A stretch of 64,000 nucleotides of DNA, taken from contig LVBG01000020.1 of the NCBI GenBank assembly GCA_001603115.1, positions 24,482 to 88,481 on the forward strand, read 5' to 3'. The stretch is from Spirochaetales bacterium Spiro_05 (GTDB lineage Bacteria; Spirochaetota; Spirochaetia; Sphaerochaetales; Sphaerochaetaceae). Shown here piece by piece: positions 4,615-31,214 of the stretch (positions within the stretch are counted from its first letter, which is position 1; each line of letters opens with the position of its first letter). The notes beneath the pieces were generated by a model. That model saw only the letters and a list, made by a program, of their open reading frames with translations. It was not told the origin of the DNA and did no database searches. Both the position numbers and the translations under genes were made by a program.

Positions 4615-4770
4615 GGTCGTTTTCTCGCAAGTATCGACGATATCTAGAGTTTAGGCAACACCAAATGGCAAGCATAAAAAAATCTTGCCAATTTGTTGTT
4701 TTCCCCCTTCAGGTGATTGACTCACTCTCCAAAATACCCAATTATGGGGCTGATTCAACAGGAGAAACCG

Positions 4771-4824
4771 ATGAACACCATCATGAACGGACACTACACT
4801 TTTCTCCTCTCCACCCCAGCCTAG
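4771..4824 (+). other. Candidate 17-aa leader ORF (MNTIMNGHYTFLLSTPA) upstream of the polyamine-type binding protein
   Basis: AGGAGA six nt before ATG, short ORF ending in TAG; below the ORF-track cutoff. Confidence 0.35.
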
Positions 4825-4930
4825 AATCGTATGCTGTGCCTTGGCTCCAAGGCTTCATTTCTACCACCGATCCAGGGAATGGCGTATGTTGACCTGGACG
4901 GGCAGATACCATTTTCACAGGAGGTTTCGC

Positions 4931-6013
4931 ATGAGCAAACCTACCACCAAGCACTTCATCCTGGCCCTGGGCCTGGTTGTCCTGGCCTCGTCTCTCTTCC
5001 TCGGCTGCTCCAAGGGCTCTGACGCCGATTCGAAGAACACCACCGGCAGCAAGAAATTGTATGTCTACAACTGGTCCTACTACACCCCTGACTCTGTCGT
5101 CGAAGCTTTTGAGAAAGAGTACAACGTTGATGTGGTGCTCGACTACTTCGCCTCGAACGAGGAGATGTTCGCCAAGCTGATGGCAAGCGGCAATGCAGGC
5201 TACGATGTCATCTTCCCCTCCGGTGACTATGTCTCGATCATGAAGAACTTGGGAATGCTGCAGAAGCTGGACACCTCAAAGATGCCCAACCTGCAATACA
5301 TCACCGAGTTTGCCCGTGACAAGGCATACTACGATCCTGATATGGAGTACTCGGTCCCCTACTACATCGGGGCCACTGGTATTGCTGTCAATACCAAGAT
5401 GGTCAAAGAGTATGAGAAGACCTGGAACATCTTTGGTGATACCCGCCTCAAAGGGCGCATGGTCATGATGGATGATATGCGCGAGGTCATGGGCGATGCC
5501 CTTTCCTACCTCGGTTACTCGGTCAACACCTCCAATGCCAAAGAGCTGGAAGAAGCTCGCGTATTGGTCAACACCAAGTGGAAACCGAACTTGGTCAAGT
5601 TCGATGCCGAGGGTTTTGCCAAGGCGTTCGCCTCCGGTGAGTATTGGGTTTCACACGGATATGCAGAAGCTATCTTTGAGGAAATTCCAGAGAACCAGTG
5701 GAAGGACATCGACTTCTTCCTGCCTGAGAATGGGGGGCCGATGTACATCGATTCGATGAGCATCCCCAAGGGAGCACGCAACTACGAGCTCGCCCTTGAG
5801 TTCATCAACTACATCCACAAGCCGGAAAACTATGCCCAGTTCCTCGATCGTTTCCACTTCCCCGCCTCGGTGAATACCGAAGCCGAGAAGTACCGCACCA
5901 CCACCCCGTTCTACACGGTGGAGATGCTCACCAACTACGAGCTGAAGGATGACTTGGGTCCCAATCTGGAGATGTACAACAAGGCATGGGAGACAATCCG
6001 TTACGTCAATTGA
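4931..6013 (+). CDS. Spermidine/putrescine-type ABC substrate-binding lipoprotein (PotD family)
   Basis: LYVYNWSYYTPDSVVEAFEKEYNVDVVLDYFASNEEMFAKL; start trimmed to ATG after AGGAGGT; no PotABC adjacent. Confidence 0.85.
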   Translation: MSKPTTKHFILALGLVVLASSLFLGCSKGSDADSKNTTGSKKLYVYNWSYYTPDSVVEAFEKEYNVDVVLDYFASNEEMFAKLMASGNAGYDVIFPSGDYVSIMKNLGMLQKLDTSKMPNLQYITEFARDKAYYDPDMEYSVPYYIGATGIAVNTKMVKEYEKTWNIFGDTRLKGRMVMMDDMREVMGDALSYLGYSVNTSNAKELEEARVLVNTKWKPNLVKFDAEGFAKAFASGEYWVSHGYAEAIFEEIPENQWKDIDFFLPENGGPMYIDSMSIPKGARNYELALEFINYIHKPENYAQFLDRFHFPASVNTEAEKYRTTTPFYTVEMLTNYELKDDLGPNLEMYNKAWETIRYVN

Positions 6014-6060
6014 CGCAGCCTTGCCTTAGAAGGTACAGTCATGGGTAAGCGGAGGTCTGT

Positions 6061-7464
6061 ATGCAAAGCTTTACCCATGACACCTACATCTCACCCCTTA
6101 CGTGGCGCTATGGCAGTGAGCCTATGCGCTTTCTTTTTAGTGAGACACACAAACGAAGATTGCTCAGACGTGTCTGGATAGCTCTTGCTTCTGCCCAGAT
6201 GGAAGCTGGCTTGGTCACCGAACAACAGGTCAGCGAGCTCAAAGCCCATCAAAACAGCGTCGATATCGACCGTGCAATGGCCATTGAAGCGGAAATCCAT
6301 CATGACCTGATGGCCGAGATCAAGACGTATGCAGAGCAGTGCCCCAATGCCGCACCCATTATCCATCTTGGTGCCACCAGCATGGATATCCTGGACAATA
6401 TGGATGCTCTTCGCCTCAAAGAAGCGCTTGCTCTTCTCATTGAGCAAACCAAGCAGCTTTTGAAAGCTTTTGTTGAGAAAATGGAAGCCTTTGCAGACAC
6501 TCCCTGCATGGCCTTCACCCATATCCAACCTGCAGAACCCACCACCGTCGGCTATCGTTTTGCCCAGACTGCCCAGGATCTGAAGGAAGATCTTCAACAC
6601 TTGATTGCAGTGCACGACTCAATCCGCGGAAAGGGAATGAAAGGGGCTGTGGGAACGAGTGCCAGTTATGCCGAATTGCTCATGGGAACGGCGTTCACTG
6701 CCCGTGAGCTGGAGCAGAAGGTGATGGAAAACTTGGGCATCGAGGCTTATACGGCGGCAACCCAGATCTACACGAGAAAGCAGGACCTACGCATCGGCCA
6801 GACCATCTCCTCGCTGTGCTGCACCCTTTCCAAGTTCTTCTTTGACTTCCGGCTCCTCCAAACCCCTCCCATCGGCGAGTGGAGCGAACCCTTTGGCAGC
6901 AAGCAGGTGGGCTCCTCAGCCATGCCTTTCAAGCGAAACCCGATCAACAGCGAGAAAATTGACAGCCTGTGTCGCTATGTGGAGGGCCAGGTTTCTGCAC
7001 TGTGGCAGAACGCCGCCTCCACATTGCTGGAGAGAACCCTCGACGACAGTGCAAACCGCCGCATGATCCTTCCCGACCTCTTCCTTACCACCGATGAGAT
7101 TCTCAGCACTGCCTTGAAGGTAGTAACCGGTATGCAGATCCACAGCAAGGGCATCGAGCGCAACCTTGCAGCCTACGGCATCTTTGCCGCCAGCGAGCGC
7201 CTGCTCATGGAGCTTGGCAAGCGGGGGGCAAATCGACAGGAGATGCATGAGTTGATCCGCTCCCACAGTCTCAAGGCTTGGGCTGAGGTGCAGGATGGCC
7301 AGCCGAACACGCTCAAGGAGATGCTCAAGCAGGATCCCGAAGTGCGCTCGTTCCTCTCAGAGTCTGAGATCGAGACGGTACTCGATGCACGCGGTTACAC
7401 AGGCGATGCAGCCCTGCGCACCCGCTTGGTCATTGATGAGGTGCAGGCTGTGCTCAGCCGATGA
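6061..7464 (+). CDS. purB: Adenylosuccinate lyase
   Basis: Fumarase/aspartase signature GSSAMPFKRNPINSEKI; full-length. Confidence 0.92.
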   Translation: MQSFTHDTYISPLTWRYGSEPMRFLFSETHKRRLLRRVWIALASAQMEAGLVTEQQVSELKAHQNSVDIDRAMAIEAEIHHDLMAEIKTYAEQCPNAAPIIHLGATSMDILDNMDALRLKEALALLIEQTKQLLKAFVEKMEAFADTPCMAFTHIQPAEPTTVGYRFAQTAQDLKEDLQHLIAVHDSIRGKGMKGAVGTSASYAELLMGTAFTARELEQKVMENLGIEAYTAATQIYTRKQDLRIGQTISSLCCTLSKFFFDFRLLQTPPIGEWSEPFGSKQVGSSAMPFKRNPINSEKIDSLCRYVEGQVSALWQNAASTLLERTLDDSANRRMILPDLFLTTDEILSTALKVVTGMQIHSKGIERNLAAYGIFAASERLLMELGKRGANRQEMHELIRSHSLKAWAEVQDGQPNTLKEMLKQDPEVRSFLSESEIETVLDARGYTGDAALRTRLVIDEVQAVLSR

Positions 7465-15627: not shown

Positions 15628-17124
15628 CTACCTGTATGAATCATGTGTCCTAAACGTTTGCAGCGAGCTTTTGGGGTGCTGCGGATCGCTCATGACCAAC
15701 AAGTTTTTCGCCACAAGCGGAAACACGTAGTTCTTCGTGAAATAGGCAACCGATTTGAATCCGAAATACTCAGCAAGTTCTTTCCTGGTTTTCGGAGTCT
15801 TGCAAAAGGCCAGAATCATTATTTCAGATTCTGAAAGATTCTCTACGTCCGCTTGCTCAAATCCTGTACGCTTATACAGCGTTACGGTAAAGAGTCCTCG
15901 TGATGATTCAAATACTGGATCTGGGTTTCCTGCCTCTCGCATGACCCGATAGATGGTAGGAATACCCGAATACCGGTTTTCAGTAAGTGACAAGAGCTCC
16001 ATGGAAGTGGCAAGAACGGGATTCCGTGTATCAGGCTGTATTTTGCCCAGTTGATCGAGTGTAATTCGACCGTATAAACCTCCGGGATTTTTTACCTCCA
16101 TCCGATTTTCATACATGATCAGCTGGATAGGCATACCTTCTGCATGAATGCTGTAGTCCCTATGGATGAGGGCATTCAGGATTACTTCCCTTATTGCAAC
16201 CATTGGGTAATCGGTAGTATCAGTCCGTATTCCAGTGTTTGCATCGACAATGGTGCGTACTTTCATATTATTCTTAATGAAAACAAGTGCATTGGTAAGC
16301 ATATCTTCCAGTGTACCTTCAATACGTTTGTTGTCGGTGAATCGCTCATTATGTGCACCGATATCACCGATACGGACACCTGGAATGGAAATGGCATTGA
16401 TGGTAAGCTGCGGAAAGTATGCCTGGGGATACGGACAAAACAAGAGAACTGCACTCATGGTGGGGCGTCCGTCCACAATCATACTCATCAGACCCAATAT
16501 CTGTTGATAATCCAGCTTGGCTAGGTTGGGCTTGTTGGATCGAAGCCTCAGAATATAACGTTGCAGGGCATCCTTATCCAGCGAAGTTTCTTGCGCACCC
16601 TCAATGGGGCGAATATCATCCCGGTATTTTTTTCTATACGCTTCATAACTGAAAACTTCATACTCTGACATCGGTTCATCAGACTGCCCTACACGGATAT
16701 AAGAACCCTTGAGTCGCCCCTTACCACCGTAATGACAAGGACGATCGACAATATCTACTGCTGGGATTTCTGCAGACAGGAAGAACATCCCATCTTCCTC
16801 GCAGACTGTAATAAGGGGCCTGATTTTTGGAACCATTTCGTTGCACTGCTCTACAATCTTATTCTGTAAATCTGCTGGATCGTACACTCCTACTTTCTGA
16901 AAACCTTTCTTCTCATCGATGCCAAAGAGAATGACACCCCCCTCATCCTGATTTGAAAAGCTGGACAAAGTATCATAGAGTCGCTTTGGATTACCATCAT
17001 GTACTGCTTTGATCTCCAAAGTCTGGCCTTCCATCCGTCGACTCGTTACATCATTGATGATCGCTTTCAGTTCATCTGTTGTCATGCAGAATATGTCCTC
17101 CCACTCGTATGGTACATTCAGCAC
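15628..17124 (-). CDS. AlbA_2-type (Schlafen AlbA) DNA-binding/ATP-binding transcriptional regulator
   Basis: LEIKAVHDGNPKRLYDTLSSFSNQDEGGVILFGIDEKKGF; YPMVAIREVILNALIHRDYSIHAEGMPIQL; C-terminal HTH-like region. Confidence 0.82.
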   Translation of the reverse strand: MLNVPYEWEDIFCMTTDELKAIINDVTSRRMEGQTLEIKAVHDGNPKRLYDTLSSFSNQDEGGVILFGIDEKKGFQKVGVYDPADLQNKIVEQCNEMVPKIRPLITVCEEDGMFFLSAEIPAVDIVDRPCHYGGKGRLKGSYIRVGQSDEPMSEYEVFSYEAYRKKYRDDIRPIEGAQETSLDKDALQRYILRLRSNKPNLAKLDYQQILGLMSMIVDGRPTMSAVLLFCPYPQAYFPQLTINAISIPGVRIGDIGAHNERFTDNKRIEGTLEDMLTNALVFIKNNMKVRTIVDANTGIRTDTTDYPMVAIREVILNALIHRDYSIHAEGMPIQLIMYENRMEVKNPGGLYGRITLDQLGKIQPDTRNPVLATSMELLSLTENRYSGIPTIYRVMREAGNPDPVFESSRGLFTVTLYKRTGFEQADVENLSESEIMILAFCKTPKTRKELAEYFGFKSVAYFTKNYVFPLVAKNLLVMSDPQHPKSSLQTFRTHDSYR

Positions 17125-22551: not shown

Positions 22552-22658
22552 TTGACATAAGTCTCTTTTGTTCCTATTATACAGGTGTGCTCAGGGAAAG
22601 AGCCAAAACGAAACTTGCACAGGAGCCCAACAAAAGGAAGCTCCTAAAGGATGAAAAA
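22552..22658 (+). promoter_or_regulatory. Sigma70-like promoter plus conserved 5' leader (copy A)
   Basis: TTGACA-17-TATTAT, then GTGTGCTcaGGGAAAG, TTGCAC, hairpin AGGAGC...GCTCCT, AAAGGA. Confidence 0.7.
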
Positions 22659-23210
22659 ATGAAAAAGACAATTGCTATCCTGTTGGTCCTGGTAATCGCA
22701 ATGGCTGGTGTGTTTGCTGACATAGCAGGAGCTGCAAGCTCAACTCTTAATCTCACAACTCAAAGAACTGGAATTCAATATCTTGCAATTACTGCATCAG
22801 AATTCGAAGGCAATACCCTTGCTCTGTGGAATACTGCTAATGCAACTAGTAACCTCCTAACAGCTGATGTTCCTGTTGCTGATGGAACCCTTGCTTGGTT
22901 GAATCTGATTAATAACAATAGAGCTGGTGTTGACGTATATGTTTCTGCCACACAAATGGCCTCTACAGACACTACAGATACCTCAAACACCTATAAAATT
23001 GACTATGCAGTTTCTGTAGGAGAAGGTTCCTTCAACACGGCTTCCAATACAGAAGAGGTAAAAATCCTTTCGGCTGCTAATACCAAGGCTGTGGCTGGAC
23101 TCTTTATGGAATCATATGCGATAACTGCGGTAGTTGATTCAGATGATTTTGAACAAGCACCTGCCGATACTTATAGAGGCATTGTAACTTTTAACTTCGC
23201 CTCAATCTAA
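22659..23210 (+). CDS. Small exported protein of unknown function (copy A)
   Basis: Signal peptide MKKTIAILLVLVIAMAGVFA; resembles 33361..33912 in overall layout, NNRxG motif and C-terminal YxGxxTFNF. Confidence 0.75.
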   Translation: MKKTIAILLVLVIAMAGVFADIAGAASSTLNLTTQRTGIQYLAITASEFEGNTLALWNTANATSNLLTADVPVADGTLAWLNLINNNRAGVDVYVSATQMASTDTTDTSNTYKIDYAVSVGEGSFNTASNTEEVKILSAANTKAVAGLFMESYAITAVVDSDDFEQAPADTYRGIVTFNFASI

Positions 23211-23245: not shown

Positions 23246-23401
23246 ATGGCTGATCAGCAATGGTCAGCCTTTAATTTTAATCACCATTGGTACCAGGTAC
23301 AACTTCCACAATTACCGCAGAAATCGCAGAATGGCGGTCTTAATCAAGGATTTCGGGGAATAGGGTACCAGTTAGAAAGTCCAATAAATCCACAAGGCTG
23401 A
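23246..23401 (+). other. Candidate 51-aa ORF (MADQQWSAFNFNHHWYQVQLPQLPQKSQNGGLNQGFRGIGYQLESPINPQG)
   Basis: Below the ORF-track cutoff; frame retained in the second tandem copy. Confidence 0.35.
23248..23269 (+). repeat. GNRA-tetraloop hairpin element, copy 1
   Basis: GGCTGATCA-GCAA-TGGTCAGCC, followed by TTTAATTTT. Confidence 0.75.
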
Positions 23402-23525
23402 TTGCTATGCGGACATCGGTACCAGGTACAACTTCCACCGCAGGAATCGCAGAATGGCGGTCTGAATCAAAGATTTCGGGGAAGAGGGTACCAGTTAGGA
23501 AGTCCAATAAATCCACAAGGCTGAT
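23289..23525 (+). repeat. Tandem direct repeat, two units of about 110 bp (23289-23402 and 23418-23525)
   Basis: GGTACCAGGTACAACTTCCA...GGGTACCAGTTAG(A/G)AAGTCCAATAAATCCACAAGGCTGAT in both units; 6-bp indel and few substitutions. Confidence 0.9.
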
Positions 23526-23540
23526 CAGAAATGGTCAGCC
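23519..23540 (+). repeat. GNRA-tetraloop hairpin element, copy 2
   Basis: GGCTGATCA-GAAA-TGGTCAGCC. Confidence 0.8.
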
Positions 23541-23664
23541 TTCAGTTTGCTGTGCGTACGTTTTGGTAGACACTTATCGATGGACAGGAGCTCGATTTGG
23601 AGACACTTTTCCAATGACTGCGACCATATTTGTTTACAACTTCATTCAAACTTATAGCCTTACT

Positions 23665-24582
23665 TTACCAATATAAATTACTTTTAAGCTTATCGACTAT
23701 ACGTCGTCTCTGGAGTGCATCAATCAGGGCGAGATTATGCATCTTCCATTTGATGGCAGGAAGGTCTTGGATGTGAGGAACACTAAAGTACGACCAATCG
23801 GGATGGCCTTCCTTAAAATCAAACAGGAACTGCTTGTCCCGTTCGTCAAATAGGGTATGTACAATCCGAATCAATTCGGCTCTTGCCTCTATCAGATCCG
23901 TCAGTGCAATCGGATCTGTCGTCATACCAACAAAGTCGGTTTCATAGATTTGCTTGATATCAAGCAAGTTTGGATTGAGAATTTCAACAATCCTCCGATT
24001 ATGCGAGAGTAAATACACGATGAAGGCTTCCTTCATTCTGGCAGAGACTCCCTCACGCTCGAGTAACCCCTTGATGTCATAGAGGTCCCTTGGATGCTGT
24101 CTATCCAGCGCAGCCATCATTTTACCTGCGAACAAATCCTCAAACGAAACCACCGGCATTTCGGCGAACCCAAAGACTTCTTCAGCAGTTTTGGTCATTC
24201 TCATAACGGTGGGTTCAAATACCGTCCCCCGCAATACCGGTGACAATTCTACTTTGACAACTGCTCGCCCAGCTTCGATGAACAATCGGTTTATATATTC
24301 AGTATGGTTCAATGAAGCGTATGTAATCTTGGCACCGGGAATCCGTGCAATTACCGTATCACCTACGCCCTTGAGATTCCGGGTGATCGACTCAAGCGAT
24401 GGTATCCGCTCGCCAATCGGCACGTACACCAGATCGATATCAACAGAAAGGCGTGGCATATCTTTGTAGAACAAATTGATTGCCGTTCCCCCTTTCAGAG
24501 CGAAACATGGATGCTCTCCTACCAAAGGCAGAATACGAACCAATAGTTCAACTTGCCTAAAATAGGGGTTCTTGCTGTCCAT
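23665..24582 (-). CDS. AbiEii-type nucleotidyltransferase toxin (type IV TA)
   Basis: FALKGGTAINLFYKDMPRLSVDIDLVYVP; FEDLFAGKMMAALDRQHPRDLYDIKGLLE. Confidence 0.85.
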   Translation of the reverse strand: MDSKNPYFRQVELLVRILPLVGEHPCFALKGGTAINLFYKDMPRLSVDIDLVYVPIGERIPSLESITRNLKGVGDTVIARIPGAKITYASLNHTEYINRLFIEAGRAVVKVELSPVLRGTVFEPTVMRMTKTAEEVFGFAEMPVVSFEDLFAGKMMAALDRQHPRDLYDIKGLLEREGVSARMKEAFIVYLLSHNRRIVEILNPNLLDIKQIYETDFVGMTTDPIALTDLIEARAELIRIVHTLFDERDKQFLFDFKEGHPDWSYFSVPHIQDLPAIKWKMHNLALIDALQRRRIVDKLKSNLYW

Positions 24583-25321
24583 CTTCGTCCTCCTTGGGTA
24601 CGGTGATCAAAAACTGTGCATCAAAAATCCCCCCGCTTACTATCTGACGTTTTCCAGCCCCTAGGTTGATCCGGGATATATCGATATGCTTATACCAAGG
24701 GTGGCCTATGGTCCTGGCAAGCCAAAGAAACAATCGCTTCGCTTGGATATTCCCACAAGCTTCCAACAGTGACTGCAATAGCATAGGCCGCAGACTTGCA
24801 GCCCCTTCCAACATCAATTTTGCCTGCAGGATGTCTTCGCGAGTCACAAGAGTACTTGCCAACTCGATAAACGCACGTTCAGCAGTGGAATATGGTAAAG
24901 GCCAATCCCATGTCCCAAATGGGACATCAACCAGACCAATCGAACCATTCGAGAACGGATTACGTTTCATCTTGATGAAGCCAGGACTGATATCCACCTT
25001 TTCCACCCATGATGGAAGACTCTGGGCACTGTACAATCTGATGCTCTGTGCAACACCAAGCTTCAAGGTATGCTCGTACCCGTGATAACTCAAGGCAGTC
25101 AAGTGCCCGACATGAACATCAGACCCGAGCACTATCAGCGAGTACACAACCTGTTGCCATTTCAACGGCGGTCCTGGTTTTCTGTAGAGACCATGCACCA
25201 AAGCTTCAATCTTGCCGGAACGGAGGTAATAATCCACAGCAGTAGATTCTATCCCATGTCTGCCAAACCATGCTCTATCAACGAGCAATCCTTCCTGCAT
25301 AATTGAATCCAGTACAGCCAT
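24557..25321 (-). CDS. AbiEi-type antitoxin
   Basis: N-terminal wHTH (LVDRAWFGRHGIESTAVDYYLRSGKIEALVHGLYRKPG); overlaps the downstream AbiEii gene. Confidence 0.8.
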   Translation of the reverse strand: MAVLDSIMQEGLLVDRAWFGRHGIESTAVDYYLRSGKIEALVHGLYRKPGPPLKWQQVVYSLIVLGSDVHVGHLTALSYHGYEHTLKLGVAQSIRLYSAQSLPSWVEKVDISPGFIKMKRNPFSNGSIGLVDVPFGTWDWPLPYSTAERAFIELASTLVTREDILQAKLMLEGAASLRPMLLQSLLEACGNIQAKRLFLWLARTIGHPWYKHIDISRINLGAGKRQIVSGGIFDAQFLITVPKEDEDGQQEPLF

Positions 25322-25530
25322 AAAGCCTCCAGTTCGTTATATGCAATATTTCCATACATATACTCTGTATTATGTTCAATATATAAACTGTAGTCAAGTT
25401 TGATTTTCTATAGTTTCACATATCTTATGTATGTATATTTCCATTTTATTGAACCTTATCAACAAATCACAGCGTTATTCAGATGAGATAAGAACCGTCG
25501 GCAACAGGAAGAAAACCAATTATTCCATAA

Positions 25531-25552
25531 GGCTGATCAGAAATGGTCAGCT
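25531..25552 (+). repeat. GNRA-tetraloop hairpin element, copy 3
   Basis: GGCTGATCA-GAAA-TGGTCAGCT; preceded by a decayed repeat tail CCAATTATTCCATAAG. Confidence 0.75.
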
Positions 25553-25578
25553 ACTTTCGCTAAACGCGGGAAACCTGA

Positions 25579-25890
25579 TACCTTCTTGAATATATCGGTG
25601 CCATTAGCATCATCTACAATGCAGAAATCGATCAGATTTGGCAATTATTAAGCATTTACGACCATTGCAATGTCGGTATGAACGTCGGTATGAATGTCGT
25701 TTTAAACAAAACAGAGCAAAAAATTCTGGAATTACTTATAGAAGATCCAAAACAAACAGCTGAAAATCTAAGCAAGAGAATCAATTCCACAATCCGTACA
25801 GCAGAAAGAACGCTTAAATCACTACAAGAAAAGAATTACCTTACAAGAATCGGTTCAAGAAGAGACGGCTACTGGATTGTGAAGCGATAA
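25579..25890 (+). pseudogene. C-terminal winged-HTH remnant of a larger regulator
   Basis: Open frame without an early start, ...NVGMNVGMNVVLNKTEQKILELLIEDPKQTAENLSKRINSTIRTAERTLKSLQEKNYLTRIGSRRDGYWIVKR. Confidence 0.6.
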
Positions 25891-26022
25891 AACCAACGAA
25901 TCAGGGTGAAGCCATCGGCTTAGTCTCCGCATAATCCTTAGGTAGCCACCTAATAGAACTCTGGATAGTGGATTCAAGGATGGTGATTACCTGGAACAGA
26001 CTCCAATAAAACCACAAGACAA

Positions 26023-26044
26023 GACTGATCAGAAATGGTCAGCC
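26023..26044 (+). repeat. GNRA-tetraloop hairpin element, copy 4 (one mismatch)
   Basis: GACTGATCA-GAAA-TGGTCAGCC preceded by CTCCAATAAAACCACAAG. Confidence 0.75.
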
Positions 26045-26199: not shown

Positions 26200-27381
26200 C
26201 TACAGCGCAAGCCTATAGATCTTCTCCACATCGTCAGCAGACAACTTCTTGAAGTTCCCAAGATGAGATTTCTCACCCACAAACGCATTCTCTGCCATGA
26301 ACCTGAGCTTATCATCTTTGATATCTGCATCAGCCAACGTAGTCGGCATCCCGATTCTCTTGTAGAAAGCCTGCAACCGTTGGATAGCTTCTTCCACGAT
26401 GCCTTCCTTGTCGCTCAGAGGCAGATCCACATTCCAGACACGCACTGCATACTGCACAAACCTGTCGATATCCACCTTGTGTACATATCTCATCCATGCC
26501 GGGAAGAGAATTGCCAGGCCTGCACCATGGGCAATGTCATACAAGGCGCTCAGCTCATGCTCAATATCATGCGTTGCCCAATCGCCTACCCTACCTCTAT
26601 CAAGAAGGTTGTTGTGGGCGATGGTACCTGTCCACATCAGTTCTGCACGATATCGATATTCACTGGGATTCTGCAAAGCCAAAGGAGCATTGGTGATGAC
26701 ATTGCGCATACAAGCTTCCAGCAAGCGATCAGAAAGGTCATTGTGTTCGACGGTGGTGAAATACCGTTCCTGAAGATGTGCCAGAATATCCGAGGCACCG
26801 CAAGCAGTCTGGTAAGCAGGCAAAGAGTAGTTAGTCTCAGGATCCATCACCGCAAACTTTGCCACAATGGTCTCGCTGTTGACTGCACGCTTCAAACCAT
26901 GCTCCGCATCGGTGATGACCGATCCAGTGGAACTTTCAGAACCTGCAGCTGGAATGGTCAGCACAACACCAAGAGGAAGCGATTCACGGATCGTGTACTC
27001 AGCTTTCGCGTAGTAATCATTCCAGACATCCTCAGAAGACGGCAGCTTTGCACCAAACGAAATCGCCTTGGCAGAATCAATGACGCTTCCGCCTCCAACT
27101 GCGAGAATGAAATCAATCTTCTCTTTCTTGCAAAGCGCTATCCCTTCCCTTACCAGGGAAAGATGCGGATTGGGAACCACTCCTCCAAGGTAGACAATTT
27201 CAAGACCAGCAGCTTTCAGAGAAGCTGTCACAGTATCATACACACCATTCTTCTTGATCGAACCACCACCGAAATGGAACAACACTTTCTTGCCCCAGGC
27301 AGCAGCTTCCTTGCCGACTTCCGACATGGTTCCCTTGCCGAAGATGATTCGTGTGGGATTGTAGTACGAGAAATTCTGCAT
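26200..27381 (-). CDS. Iron-containing alcohol dehydrogenase
   Basis: NPTRIIFGKGTMSEVGKE; AVGGGSVIDSAKAISFGA; AHGAGLAILFPAWM. Confidence 0.9.
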   Translation of the reverse strand: MQNFSYYNPTRIIFGKGTMSEVGKEAAAWGKKVLFHFGGGSIKKNGVYDTVTASLKAAGLEIVYLGGVVPNPHLSLVREGIALCKKEKIDFILAVGGGSVIDSAKAISFGAKLPSSEDVWNDYYAKAEYTIRESLPLGVVLTIPAAGSESSTGSVITDAEHGLKRAVNSETIVAKFAVMDPETNYSLPAYQTACGASDILAHLQERYFTTVEHNDLSDRLLEACMRNVITNAPLALQNPSEYRYRAELMWTGTIAHNNLLDRGRVGDWATHDIEHELSALYDIAHGAGLAILFPAWMRYVHKVDIDRFVQYAVRVWNVDLPLSDKEGIVEEAIQRLQAFYKRIGMPTTLADADIKDDKLRFMAENAFVGEKSHLGNFKKLSADDVEKIYRLAL

Positions 27382-28991: not shown

Positions 28992-29064
28992 ATCCTAATC
29001 AGGATCGTTAGCTTACACCCCACCCTTGACCACCCACCCCGCTTCCTCTACGATGAGCTCAGCT

Positions 29065-29210
29065 GGATTTGGAAAAACGGAACGGGGTGTGATTCCCCGG
29101 CGGTCCCGCCACTGTAATCGACGATGAACACAGATATGCCATTGTCCAAGAAGGATGAGAAGGCCTGTCAGTAAGTTGACTCGTAAGCCAGGAGACGTTT
29201 CCAGATGACA
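29065..29210 (+). ncRNA. Cobalamin riboswitch
   Basis: GGGTGTGATTCCCCGGCGGTCCCGCCACTGTAATCG ... GTAAGCCAGGAGAC B12-box-like pattern, upstream of a TonB-dependent receptor. Confidence 0.9.
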
Positions 29211-29318
29211 ATTCTTCGTGGAAAAAGAGACAGCGCCCAGGACACGGGTATACCTTAGGTATATTCTCATCCCTTCCATGAAGCATTGCATCCAGACTAC
29301 ACACCCTGGAGGCCCTTC

Positions 29319-31214
29319 ATGAAGAAGCGCGGAATCTTCTCTCTGGTCCTGTTGCTTGCCCTCTCTCCCCTCTTTGCAGCACAAGACATCACCGACCTTG
29401 GCACAGCCTTTGAGCTTGTCGTAGCAGAAAGCTCACTTGCTGAAGCCCAGACAAACACAGCATCCTCAGTCTCCGTAATCGGCAAAGAGGAAATCGCATC
29501 CTACAACGCACAAACTACCGCAGAACTCGTCGGCAAAGCCATCGGCACATCCTTCAACTCCTACGGAGGCCTTGGCGCACTGCAAACCGTTGTCATCCGA
29601 GGAGCAACATCTTCCAAGAACCTCATCTATCTTGATGGCGTTCTTCTTTCCTCTGCCCACAACGGCTCTGTCGACCTCTCCATCATTCCCATCGATATCA
29701 TTGAAAGTATTGAGATCATCAAGAGCGGCCCGGGAAACCTTGGCAGAACCAATGCCATCGGGGGCATGGTGAACATCATCACCAAGAAAGGACAGAAAAG
29801 TGACACACCCTTCTCCCTCACCGTGGAGAACGGCTCCTTCCTTCCCCTTCCCTACGGAACCAGCAATGAGCGCAACTGGGCTTCCCTGGTGGACAGCCAG
29901 AAACTCGACCTCTCCTACACCAACGAAAATCTGGTGGCAAGTTTCGGGGGCCTCATTGCCCAGAACGCCTACACCTATGAGAATGCAGGCACCCAACTCA
30001 GAGACAATGCCCAAGTCCAGGAAGTACATGGATCGGTCAACTACAAGCAGGGACTCTCCGACCTTGCCTCGTTCAACACCCAGAACCTGGTGAGCTACAA
30101 GAACCTGGGATTACCTGGTGGTTATGTAATTAGTGGAGGTTACGGAGGTCTTACACCCAACGACTATGAGCAAGATCTTCTTGTGAACACCCATAATACA
30201 TTTGAACTTGCCGAGCTTACCCCCACCATGGAAAAACTCACCACCCAACTGAACTACAGCTTTGCAAGAACCTTCTACCATGATGACGACTATCAGGACA
30301 GCACCCACAACAAACACAAGGCAGCTGCCCAAGCCGAAGCAACCTGGAATGTTGGAGAGAACTACACCCTTACCACCGACGTTCTCTACTCGCTCGACTA
30401 CGTTGATAGTACTGATGTAGGTAAAAATACCCGCAATACCATCTCCAGTGCTGCCAATGCCAGCCTGTATTTCCAGGAAGGCAAACTCTCCCTGCACCCT
30501 AGCATCAACGTGGCCTTCATCAGTGACCTCAAGGTACTCTCTCCGAATGCTTCCCTGGGATTCATCTATCTCATCAATCCTTCCGTGGACCTCAGTGCAA
30601 CACTTAGCTATGCAGAAAACGTACCCACCTTCTCCGACCTCTATTGGCCTTCCTCCGGGAACCCCAACCTCAAGACGGAAAAGGGCTTGAATGCTGATAT
30701 CGGTCTTACCACAACCATTGGAAATTTCACCTACGAAGGCAGTCTGTTCGGGAGAAACATCTACAATGCAATCGCCTACTCATCAACGACCTATCTTCCG
30801 GACAACATCGCCCACAGTGTCTACCTTGGAACCGAACAGAGTGCAGAATTCACGCTCAACGACATTGCCTCTCTCCAGGCAAACTACCAGTACAACAAAA
30901 GCTATGACCTCTCCAACGGCAAGACCTTTGCCGACAACGTAGAGGTTTCGAGCATCAGAAAGCACACTGCAAAAGGCTCTCTCTTCCTTGCCTCCGGCAA
31001 GTTTGATTCAGCACTCAGTGCAGAGTATTTGGGCAAGACAAGTTCACTCGAAAGTGTGTTCCTGATCAATCTCAGTGTCGGTATGCAAGTGACCGAAGCT
31101 CTGAATGCCTATGTGGCGATAGACAACCTGCTCAATACATCCTACGAGCTTACCAGCGGTGGCTACCCCATGCCTGGCACAAAGATCCGCCTCGGCGGAA
31201 AACTGAGGTTCTAG
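29319..31214 (+). CDS. TonB-dependent outer-membrane receptor, BtuB-like
   Basis: Signal peptide, TonB-box/plug region SSVSVIGKEEIASYNAQTTAELV, beta-barrel, terminal F; riboswitch context. Confidence 0.87.
   Translation: MKKRGIFSLVLLLALSPLFAAQDITDLGTAFELVVAESSLAEAQTNTASSVSVIGKEEIASYNAQTTAELVGKAIGTSFNSYGGLGALQTVVIRGATSSKNLIYLDGVLLSSAHNGSVDLSIIPIDIIESIEIIKSGPGNLGRTNAIGGMVNIITKKGQKSDTPFSLTVENGSFLPLPYGTSNERNWASLVDSQKLDLSYTNENLVASFGGLIAQNAYTYENAGTQLRDNAQVQEVHGSVNYKQGLSDLASFNTQNLVSYKNLGLPGGYVISGGYGGLTPNDYEQDLLVNTHNTFELAELTPTMEKLTTQLNYSFARTFYHDDDYQDSTHNKHKAAAQAEATWNVGENYTLTTDVLYSLDYVDSTDVGKNTRNTISSAANASLYFQEGKLSLHPSINVAFISDLKVLSPNASLGFIYLINPSVDLSATLSYAENVPTFSDLYWPSSGNPNLKTEKGLNADIGLTTTIGNFTYEGSLFGRNIYNAIAYSSTTYLPDNIAHSVYLGTEQSAEFTLNDIASLQANYQYNKSYDLSNGKTFADNVEVSSIRKHTAKGSLFLASGKFDSALSAEYLGKTSSLESVFLINLSVGMQVTEALNAYVAIDNLLNTSYELTSGGYPMPGTKIRLGGKLRF

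Follow-up and report, generated by a model that had tools for sequence, protein, structure and literature searches.

The AbiE locus in the window (the whole 64,000-nucleotide stretch analysed here) belongs to a short cassette-like array punctuated by a repeat that we named EL, and this cassette reading of the locus is well supported. On balance, we lean towards the fuller view that the array is one of many in Sphaerochaeta, that EL is specific to this lineage, and that an EL-end-specific activity stockpiles the units. Comparison between genomes shows that joining, duplication and loss of units take place at EL and its hairpin, and that EL travels with units between loci. From this we infer that EL serves as a recombination or insertion site for stockpiling units. 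The array works like an integron cassette array, yet our tests say that it is not an integron. Toxin-antitoxin (TA) and defence genes stockpiled as cassettes are known chiefly from integrons, and if Sphaerochaeta builds its arrays with another repeat and without an integrase, the banking of genes as cassettes arose more than once. No earlier description of such arrays in Sphaerochaeta was found in the open-access literature.

Genes and hairpins of the AbiE locus

The left anchor of the locus is a gene for a small secreted protein (MKKTIAILLVLVIxMxGVxA...; 22659..23210, plus strand, in an ORF that opens at 22587), for which no Pfam family was found. This gene adjoins livK, and its 5' region is homologous genus-wide. 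The right anchor is an iron-containing alcohol dehydrogenase (ADH) gene (26200..27381, minus strand; PF00465, 1.7e-46), which is syntenic in the genomes G002, G005 and G008. Between the anchors lie a predicted abiEii toxin gene encoding a nucleotidyltransferase (23665..24582, minus strand; PF08843, 4.5e-39; PADLOC AbiEii, 3.6e-111) and, adjacent to it, a predicted abiEi antitoxin gene (24557..25321, minus strand; PF11459/PF17194; AbiEi_3, 1.3e-31; PADLOC AbiEi, 4e-67), which together make up a putative AbiE type IV toxin-antitoxin module. They are followed by a winged-HTH ORF of 70 aa (25678..25890, plus strand; HTH_24, 7.8e-08), the cargo of a 492-bp unit at 25553-26044. Beyond the right anchor, a cobalamin riboswitch (29047-29219, plus strand; Rfam RF00174, 90.9 bits) lies directly 5' of a TonB-receptor-like gene (29286-31214).

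The first-pass annotation of this DNA had described four hairpins in one orientation, and all four are present. The 22-mer GGCTGATCAGNAATGGTCAGCC occurs at 23248, 23519, 25531 and 26023, always on the plus strand and with 0, 0, 1 and 1 mismatches, against 0 matches expected in shuffled sequence. Hairpin 1 (23248..23269, GCAA loop) lies 37 bp past the stop codon with no EL core to its left, and hairpin 2 (23519..23540, GAAA loop) is the 3' end of an EL copy. Hairpin 3 (25531..25552) and hairpin 4 (26023..26044) are the left and right junctions of the 492-bp unit, which is missing from G002 and G008. As first reported, a variant of the lead-in 'CCAATAAAtCCACAAG' precedes hairpins 2-4, with 5 additional bases at hairpin 4, and family searches agreed that hairpins 2 and 3 bracket abiEi/abiEii and that hairpins 3 and 4 bracket the winged-HTH ORF.

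Each of the four hairpins folded better than its shuffled versions (z -3.0 to -4.6). The stem changes had been taken as a hint of selection on the fold, and this claim did not hold for the window: the change in hairpin 4 breaks a pair (A.C), that in hairpin 3 leaves a G.U wobble, and no compensatory change occurs among the four copies, so these copies alone do not justify it. When pairs were counted over 28 hairpins, 92% of cells were paired and double changes were found at 3 of 11 pairs; since shuffled controls come near by several of the measures and about three sequences account for the double changes, this covariation lends the structure modest support.

No further copy of the 22-mer was found in the draft genome with up to 3 mismatches allowed (2.3 Mb, 69 contigs, ~69% complete), and viral contigs gave no match. 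The same 22-mer is present in Sphaerochaeta halotolerans (L035) and in a Spirochaetales MAG (L036), two records that place the genome in the Sphaerochaeta group, and a version with 2 mismatches lies behind a tRNA in G032 (C8:1082), another genus of the family. An identical 22-mer also forms a lone intergenic terminator-like hairpin in five Bacteroidota records (L031, L032, L033, L034, L037), and the hairpin sequence by itself is therefore not diagnostic.

Structure of the EL repeat

Alignment of the flanks revealed that the 22-mer makes up just the 3' end of EL, a larger repeat of ~115-190 bp. Its conserved core of ~115 bp has a sharp 5' end, AYYATCGGTACC, and contains two GGTACCAGGTAnnA..TCCACA boxes with ~75 bp between them; the core starts with AYYATCGGTACCAGGTAnnAnnTTCCACAnnTTTCCACA, which is followed by a variable middle and the second box. 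In the lineage of the window, the core is followed by CCACAAGG and then by the GNRA hairpin. The place of the hairpin is taken in G015, G021 and G025 by GGTTGGCCAGAAACGGCCAACC or a near variant, whose stem shows some compensatory changes, and the GGCTGATC hairpin is missing from many related arrays, so that the upstream core alone is common to them. The first reading of the locus was supported in part; the tag is bigger than the hairpin, with a core that is common and a hairpin that is often absent. The consensus fold of 37 cores contained no pairs (RNAalifold), and folding within EL is confined to the 3' hairpin. No Rfam match reached the gathering threshold in the EL region, where only a chance match (E 1.3) was obtained. 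A coding role for EL was also considered, given that its reverse strand is open in many copies (..VENVxILPGTD..), and we rejected it because the frame is broken by indels of one base that distinguish subfamilies (A3 columns 43 and 55).

Two EL cores and two shortened copies lie in the window, along with hairpin 1, which lacks a core. Copy A (23282..23402, plus strand, boxes 1 and 2; nhmmer 4.7e-33; model R1 87.6 bits), absent from the first-pass annotation, is a hairpin-less relic whose hairpin is deleted after GGCTGAT, with CCAATAAATCCACAAGGCTGAT fused to TGCTATGCGG. Copy B (23413..23520, plus strand; nhmmer 1.2e-40; model R1 74 bits), which ends in hairpin 2, stands in tandem with copy A as a ~123-bp repeat (123 bp from box 2 to box 2). 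A shortened EL (AACCGTCGGCAACAGGAAGAAAACCAATTATTCCATAAG; 25489..25530, plus strand), recognised by a profile match and by comparison with relatives, precedes hairpin 3, and a shortened, degenerate one (25961..26022, plus strand; nhmmer 1.1e-12) precedes hairpin 4.

Two further elements accompany EL. A 'Tail' repeat, GCTGTGCGTACGTTTTGGTAGACACTT..GGAGACACTTTT.. (23547..23655, plus strand), recurs after EL in several congeners; it carries two AGACACTTT motifs ~35 bp apart, shares the orientation of EL in 11 of 11 cases (window, G005, G018, G017, G001, G013, G016), and is possibly an IS end or decayed cargo. Several EL copies have, to their left, short footprints of the EL terminus in tandem (TATCATCGG-TATCATCGGTACC; AACCATCGG repeats), for example in G008 (L036), G001 (array 7074), G017 (array 18052) and G018 (4698). 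In G005, a sub-module made up of the hairpin and 101 bp is present in up to 5 tandem copies.

Units are gained, lost and duplicated at EL

We aligned more than 80 left flanks on the EL 5' end and found them to be unrelated up to the terminus. Sixteen ends of inter-locus homology fell within 6 bp of an EL 5' end, against 0.8 expected (1000 circular shifts; mean 0.8, maximum 5). Several genes are cut exactly at EL, including a HEPN/MNT module in G005, an IS21 istA and a HigA-like gene in G001, a DUF6880 gene in G019, an IS3 ORF in G025, and a gene in G002 where homology ends at L041:5222 and EL runs from 5223.

The same units were found at more than one place. An EL+HigA-like unit occurs at 16132 and 22379 of one G001 array with 99.4% identity and differing left neighbours. 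At different loci, G001 shares an AbiE(DUF6088)+EL unit of 1.9 kb with S. halotolerans (93% identical) and a HEPN-MNT unit of 977 bp, which ends at EL, with G017 (96%). In G018, an MNT/HEPN unit lies between hairpin variants after the stop codon of a permease gene, the 3' end of which recurs at 96% identity from ~3 bp past the second hairpin. Tandem duplications that begin and end at EL are frequent (123, 446 and 463 bp). Units are bounded less regularly on the right than on the left, the left EL being part of some shared units and the right EL of others, and IS elements cause some of the array breakpoints. The earlier proposal that the hairpins are 3' tags of captured or shuffled cassettes is a good fit to the data, in that EL punctuates one-directional TA and defence arrays genus-wide and homology ends at EL.

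For the winged-HTH unit of the window, presence or absence is delimited exactly by hairpins, because in G002 and G008 the left (AbiEi-side) flank of hairpin 3 meets the right (ADH-side) flank of hairpin 4 at a single hairpin. An empty site, which had been suggested as a check, was thus obtained for the unit between hairpins 3 and 4 and not for AbiE: among the genomes compared, none without AbiE showed a clean hairpin-bounded empty site. G002 and G008 retain AbiEi without AbiEii, and the deletion breakpoint lies inside the Tail, not at a hairpin. The antitoxin gene without its toxin gene stands at the site syntenic with the window in both (L040:7394-8416 in G002; L036 in G008).

Distribution and orientation of EL

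A sequence model built on 37 cores detected EL in 18 of 26 genus genomes (one per species, several of them drafts, with no event seen between strains of one species) at 1 to 29 copies each. EL was also detected in one sister genus, and no copy was found among 146 further Spirochaetia genomes sampled with stricter filters than within the genus. The copies are clustered at two types of site, namely livK/small-secreted-protein sites (window, G002, G005, G008, G018) and a hotspot upstream of comM-dprA (G001, G003, G005, G011, G015, G016, G017, G019). In total, 131 EL copies had the orientation of their array and 2 the opposite one, a count that measures agreement inside clusters, each locus having first been oriented by the analyst.

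EL lies directly at or just past the small-secreted-protein stop codon in G008, G018, G015 and G003. The small secreted proteins form a family with a conserved signal peptide (MKKTIAILLVLVIxM) and a variable body, encoded at differing chromosomal sites, and EL is at or near the stop codon in many genomes (G015 C6, L130:652-1200; G008, L036; G018; G003; G025; G016). This family could be a cassette in its own right, or else a favoured anchor.

Comparison with known repeat systems

BOX repeats are modular, contain a sub-module in variable tandem number, and have a dispersed distribution unconnected with mobile gene units. EL is likewise modular with a variable tandem sub-module (G005); unlike BOX, it is tied to mobile gene units. 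Acinetobacter pdif modules (PMC6449649) resemble the EL arrays in that short sites bracket shuffled TA and accessory modules, whereas pdif are 28-bp XerC/XerD sites on plasmids and EL is a chromosomal repeat several times that length.

Integron cassette arrays and CALIN (PMC8618304, PMC8352920) share more features with the EL arrays: both are directional and carry a short repeat per unit and TA and defence cargo, the units recur across species, and a stop codon often abuts the repeat. The EL arrays are one-directional, with mobile units that each have one site. Unlike integrons (PMC8618304, PMC8352920), the genus has no IntI above the cut-off (0 of 26 genomes exceeded the TIGR02249 cut-off of 265 bits, the best scoring 102 bits), the EL core is not palindromic, the EL hairpin does not have the extrahelical bases of attC, and the arrays are rich in cut genes and IS elements, with the sharpest junction at the 5' rather than the 3' end of the repeat. 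The attC R'' (RYYYAAC) and R' (GTTRRRY) boxes were found in 0 of 115 EL windows on either strand. EL was rejected as an attC site, the box pattern and the fold both being negative.

The other proposal of the first-pass annotation, a dispersed REP-like element, failed by tag, copy number, orientation and flanking when judged by published REP/RAYT criteria (PMC2817692). EL resembles REP, BIME and REPIN elements (PMC2817692, PMC3733652) in having an extragenic palindrome and, near the largest arrays, a PF01797 protein. In contrast to REP/RAYT systems, EL is clustered in one orientation, reaches at most 29 copies and 13 hairpins in any one genome (REP usually exceeds 100 copies per genome), and has no GTAG/GGAG or CGTC head beside the palindrome (0 of 30 hairpins). 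No EL was found within 1.5 kb of any PF01797 match, no hairpin adjoins the RAYT genes, and the RAYT-like gene was not found in several EL carriers, namely G002, G006, G008, G018 and the draft genome of the window (G000). The RAYT-like genes that follow comM-dprA are located in G001 (L223/L224), G005 (L210), G011 (L230), G015 (L231), G016 (L211), G017 (L225) and G019 (L229).

Proposed mechanism and alternative explanations

We propose that new junctions would be made by an EL-end-specific activity, namely a recombinase or transposase whose gene lies elsewhere or has since disappeared, and that direct EL copies would then recombine homologously, or slip, so that units are duplicated and deleted. 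We infer such an activity from the fixed 5' end, since dozens of unrelated sequences are joined to it and recombination among copies already present cannot bring this about; the later duplication and loss within arrays could be ordinary recombination without a dedicated enzyme. More tentatively, the arrays may represent a non-integron cassette-stockpiling system of the Sphaerochaetaceae, in which an EL-end-specific enzyme inserts EL-led units directionally at existing EL 5' ends. Insertion of this kind would account for the shared orientation, for cargo that breaks off precisely at the following EL, and for the terminal footprints in tandem, and it would assemble TA and defence arrays with no integrase. 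The EL 5' end offers a concrete sequence handle for finding the enzyme.

EL could instead be a passive REP/BOX-like repeat that accumulated in island hotspots and recombined by RecA-dependent or slippage events, aided by the hairpin and without a dedicated enzyme. The EL-bounded tandem duplications, the position of the 492-bp unit between two near-identical hairpins, and the IS-rich, TA-rich hotspots, an ordinary setting for such recombination, are all consistent with this, yet it leaves unexplained the single orientation and the fusion of dozens of unrelated, even mid-gene, sequences at one precise EL 5' end, and we regard it as unlikely. We think it improbable that the driver is the HUH (Y1) RAYT-like protein (~270-300 aa, PF01797), mobilising EL units as single strands. 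Its gene is present in all the EL-richest genomes, and EL lies 3-14 kb upstream on the same strand in the eight genomes with the comM-dprA hotspot, yet this adjacency may be inherited because comM-dprA-RAYT is a conserved synteny; moreover, neither EL nor hairpin stands beside the RAYT genes, and the EL carriers G002, G006 and G018, as well as the window's draft genome, yielded no such protein. The protein is thus a candidate by position only.

Two further explanations fared worse. That the hairpin is nothing but a common intrinsic terminator lying between genes by happenstance is very improbable: terminator scoring was positive for two of the four window copies, hairpin 1, which is followed by TTTAATTTT, and hairpin 4, and the lone 22-mers in Bacteroidota and the copy after the G032 tRNA point the same way, while the 115-bp core, its sharp 5' end, the tandem copies, and the presence or absence of units at hairpins stay unexplained. 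Termination does not suffice alone, and it would fit as a secondary role of the hairpin, which probably also terminates transcription and so insulates units, and is possibly a recombination aid as well. If the arrays were a genuine integron remnant (CALIN) whose attC sites had diverged, this would account for their direction, the TA-rich cargo and the frequent start of EL at the stop codon of the left gene; with no integrase above the cut-off in the 26 genus genomes, no R-boxes, no core fold and no extrahelical bases in the hairpin, this reading is largely refuted and hardly credible.

Cargo of the EL arrays

The EL arrays offer a convenient source for mining candidate defence genes, several units having no known family. 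AbiE pairs of differing families are bracketed by EL in the window, G003, G016 and G001. Other EL-bracketed genes include PIN with MazE, MNT/HEPN (PF08780 with Polbeta), RES, SecB-like and DUF6880 genes, and DUF1413, which occurs twice in tandem. DUF4917 and AAA_14/DUF4143 cargo correspond to the PADLOC candidates PDC-S21 and PDC-S01, and HigBA-like genes were named by the look of their sequence alone. IS elements and polysaccharide genes are also numerous. EL-bracketed or EL-adjacent proteins without any Pfam match are encoded in G003 C13 (L127:8003-8659), G001 C1 (L135:1592-3324 and 4659-6113) and G018 (L039:7600-8217), and these units are candidates for new TA or defence genes.
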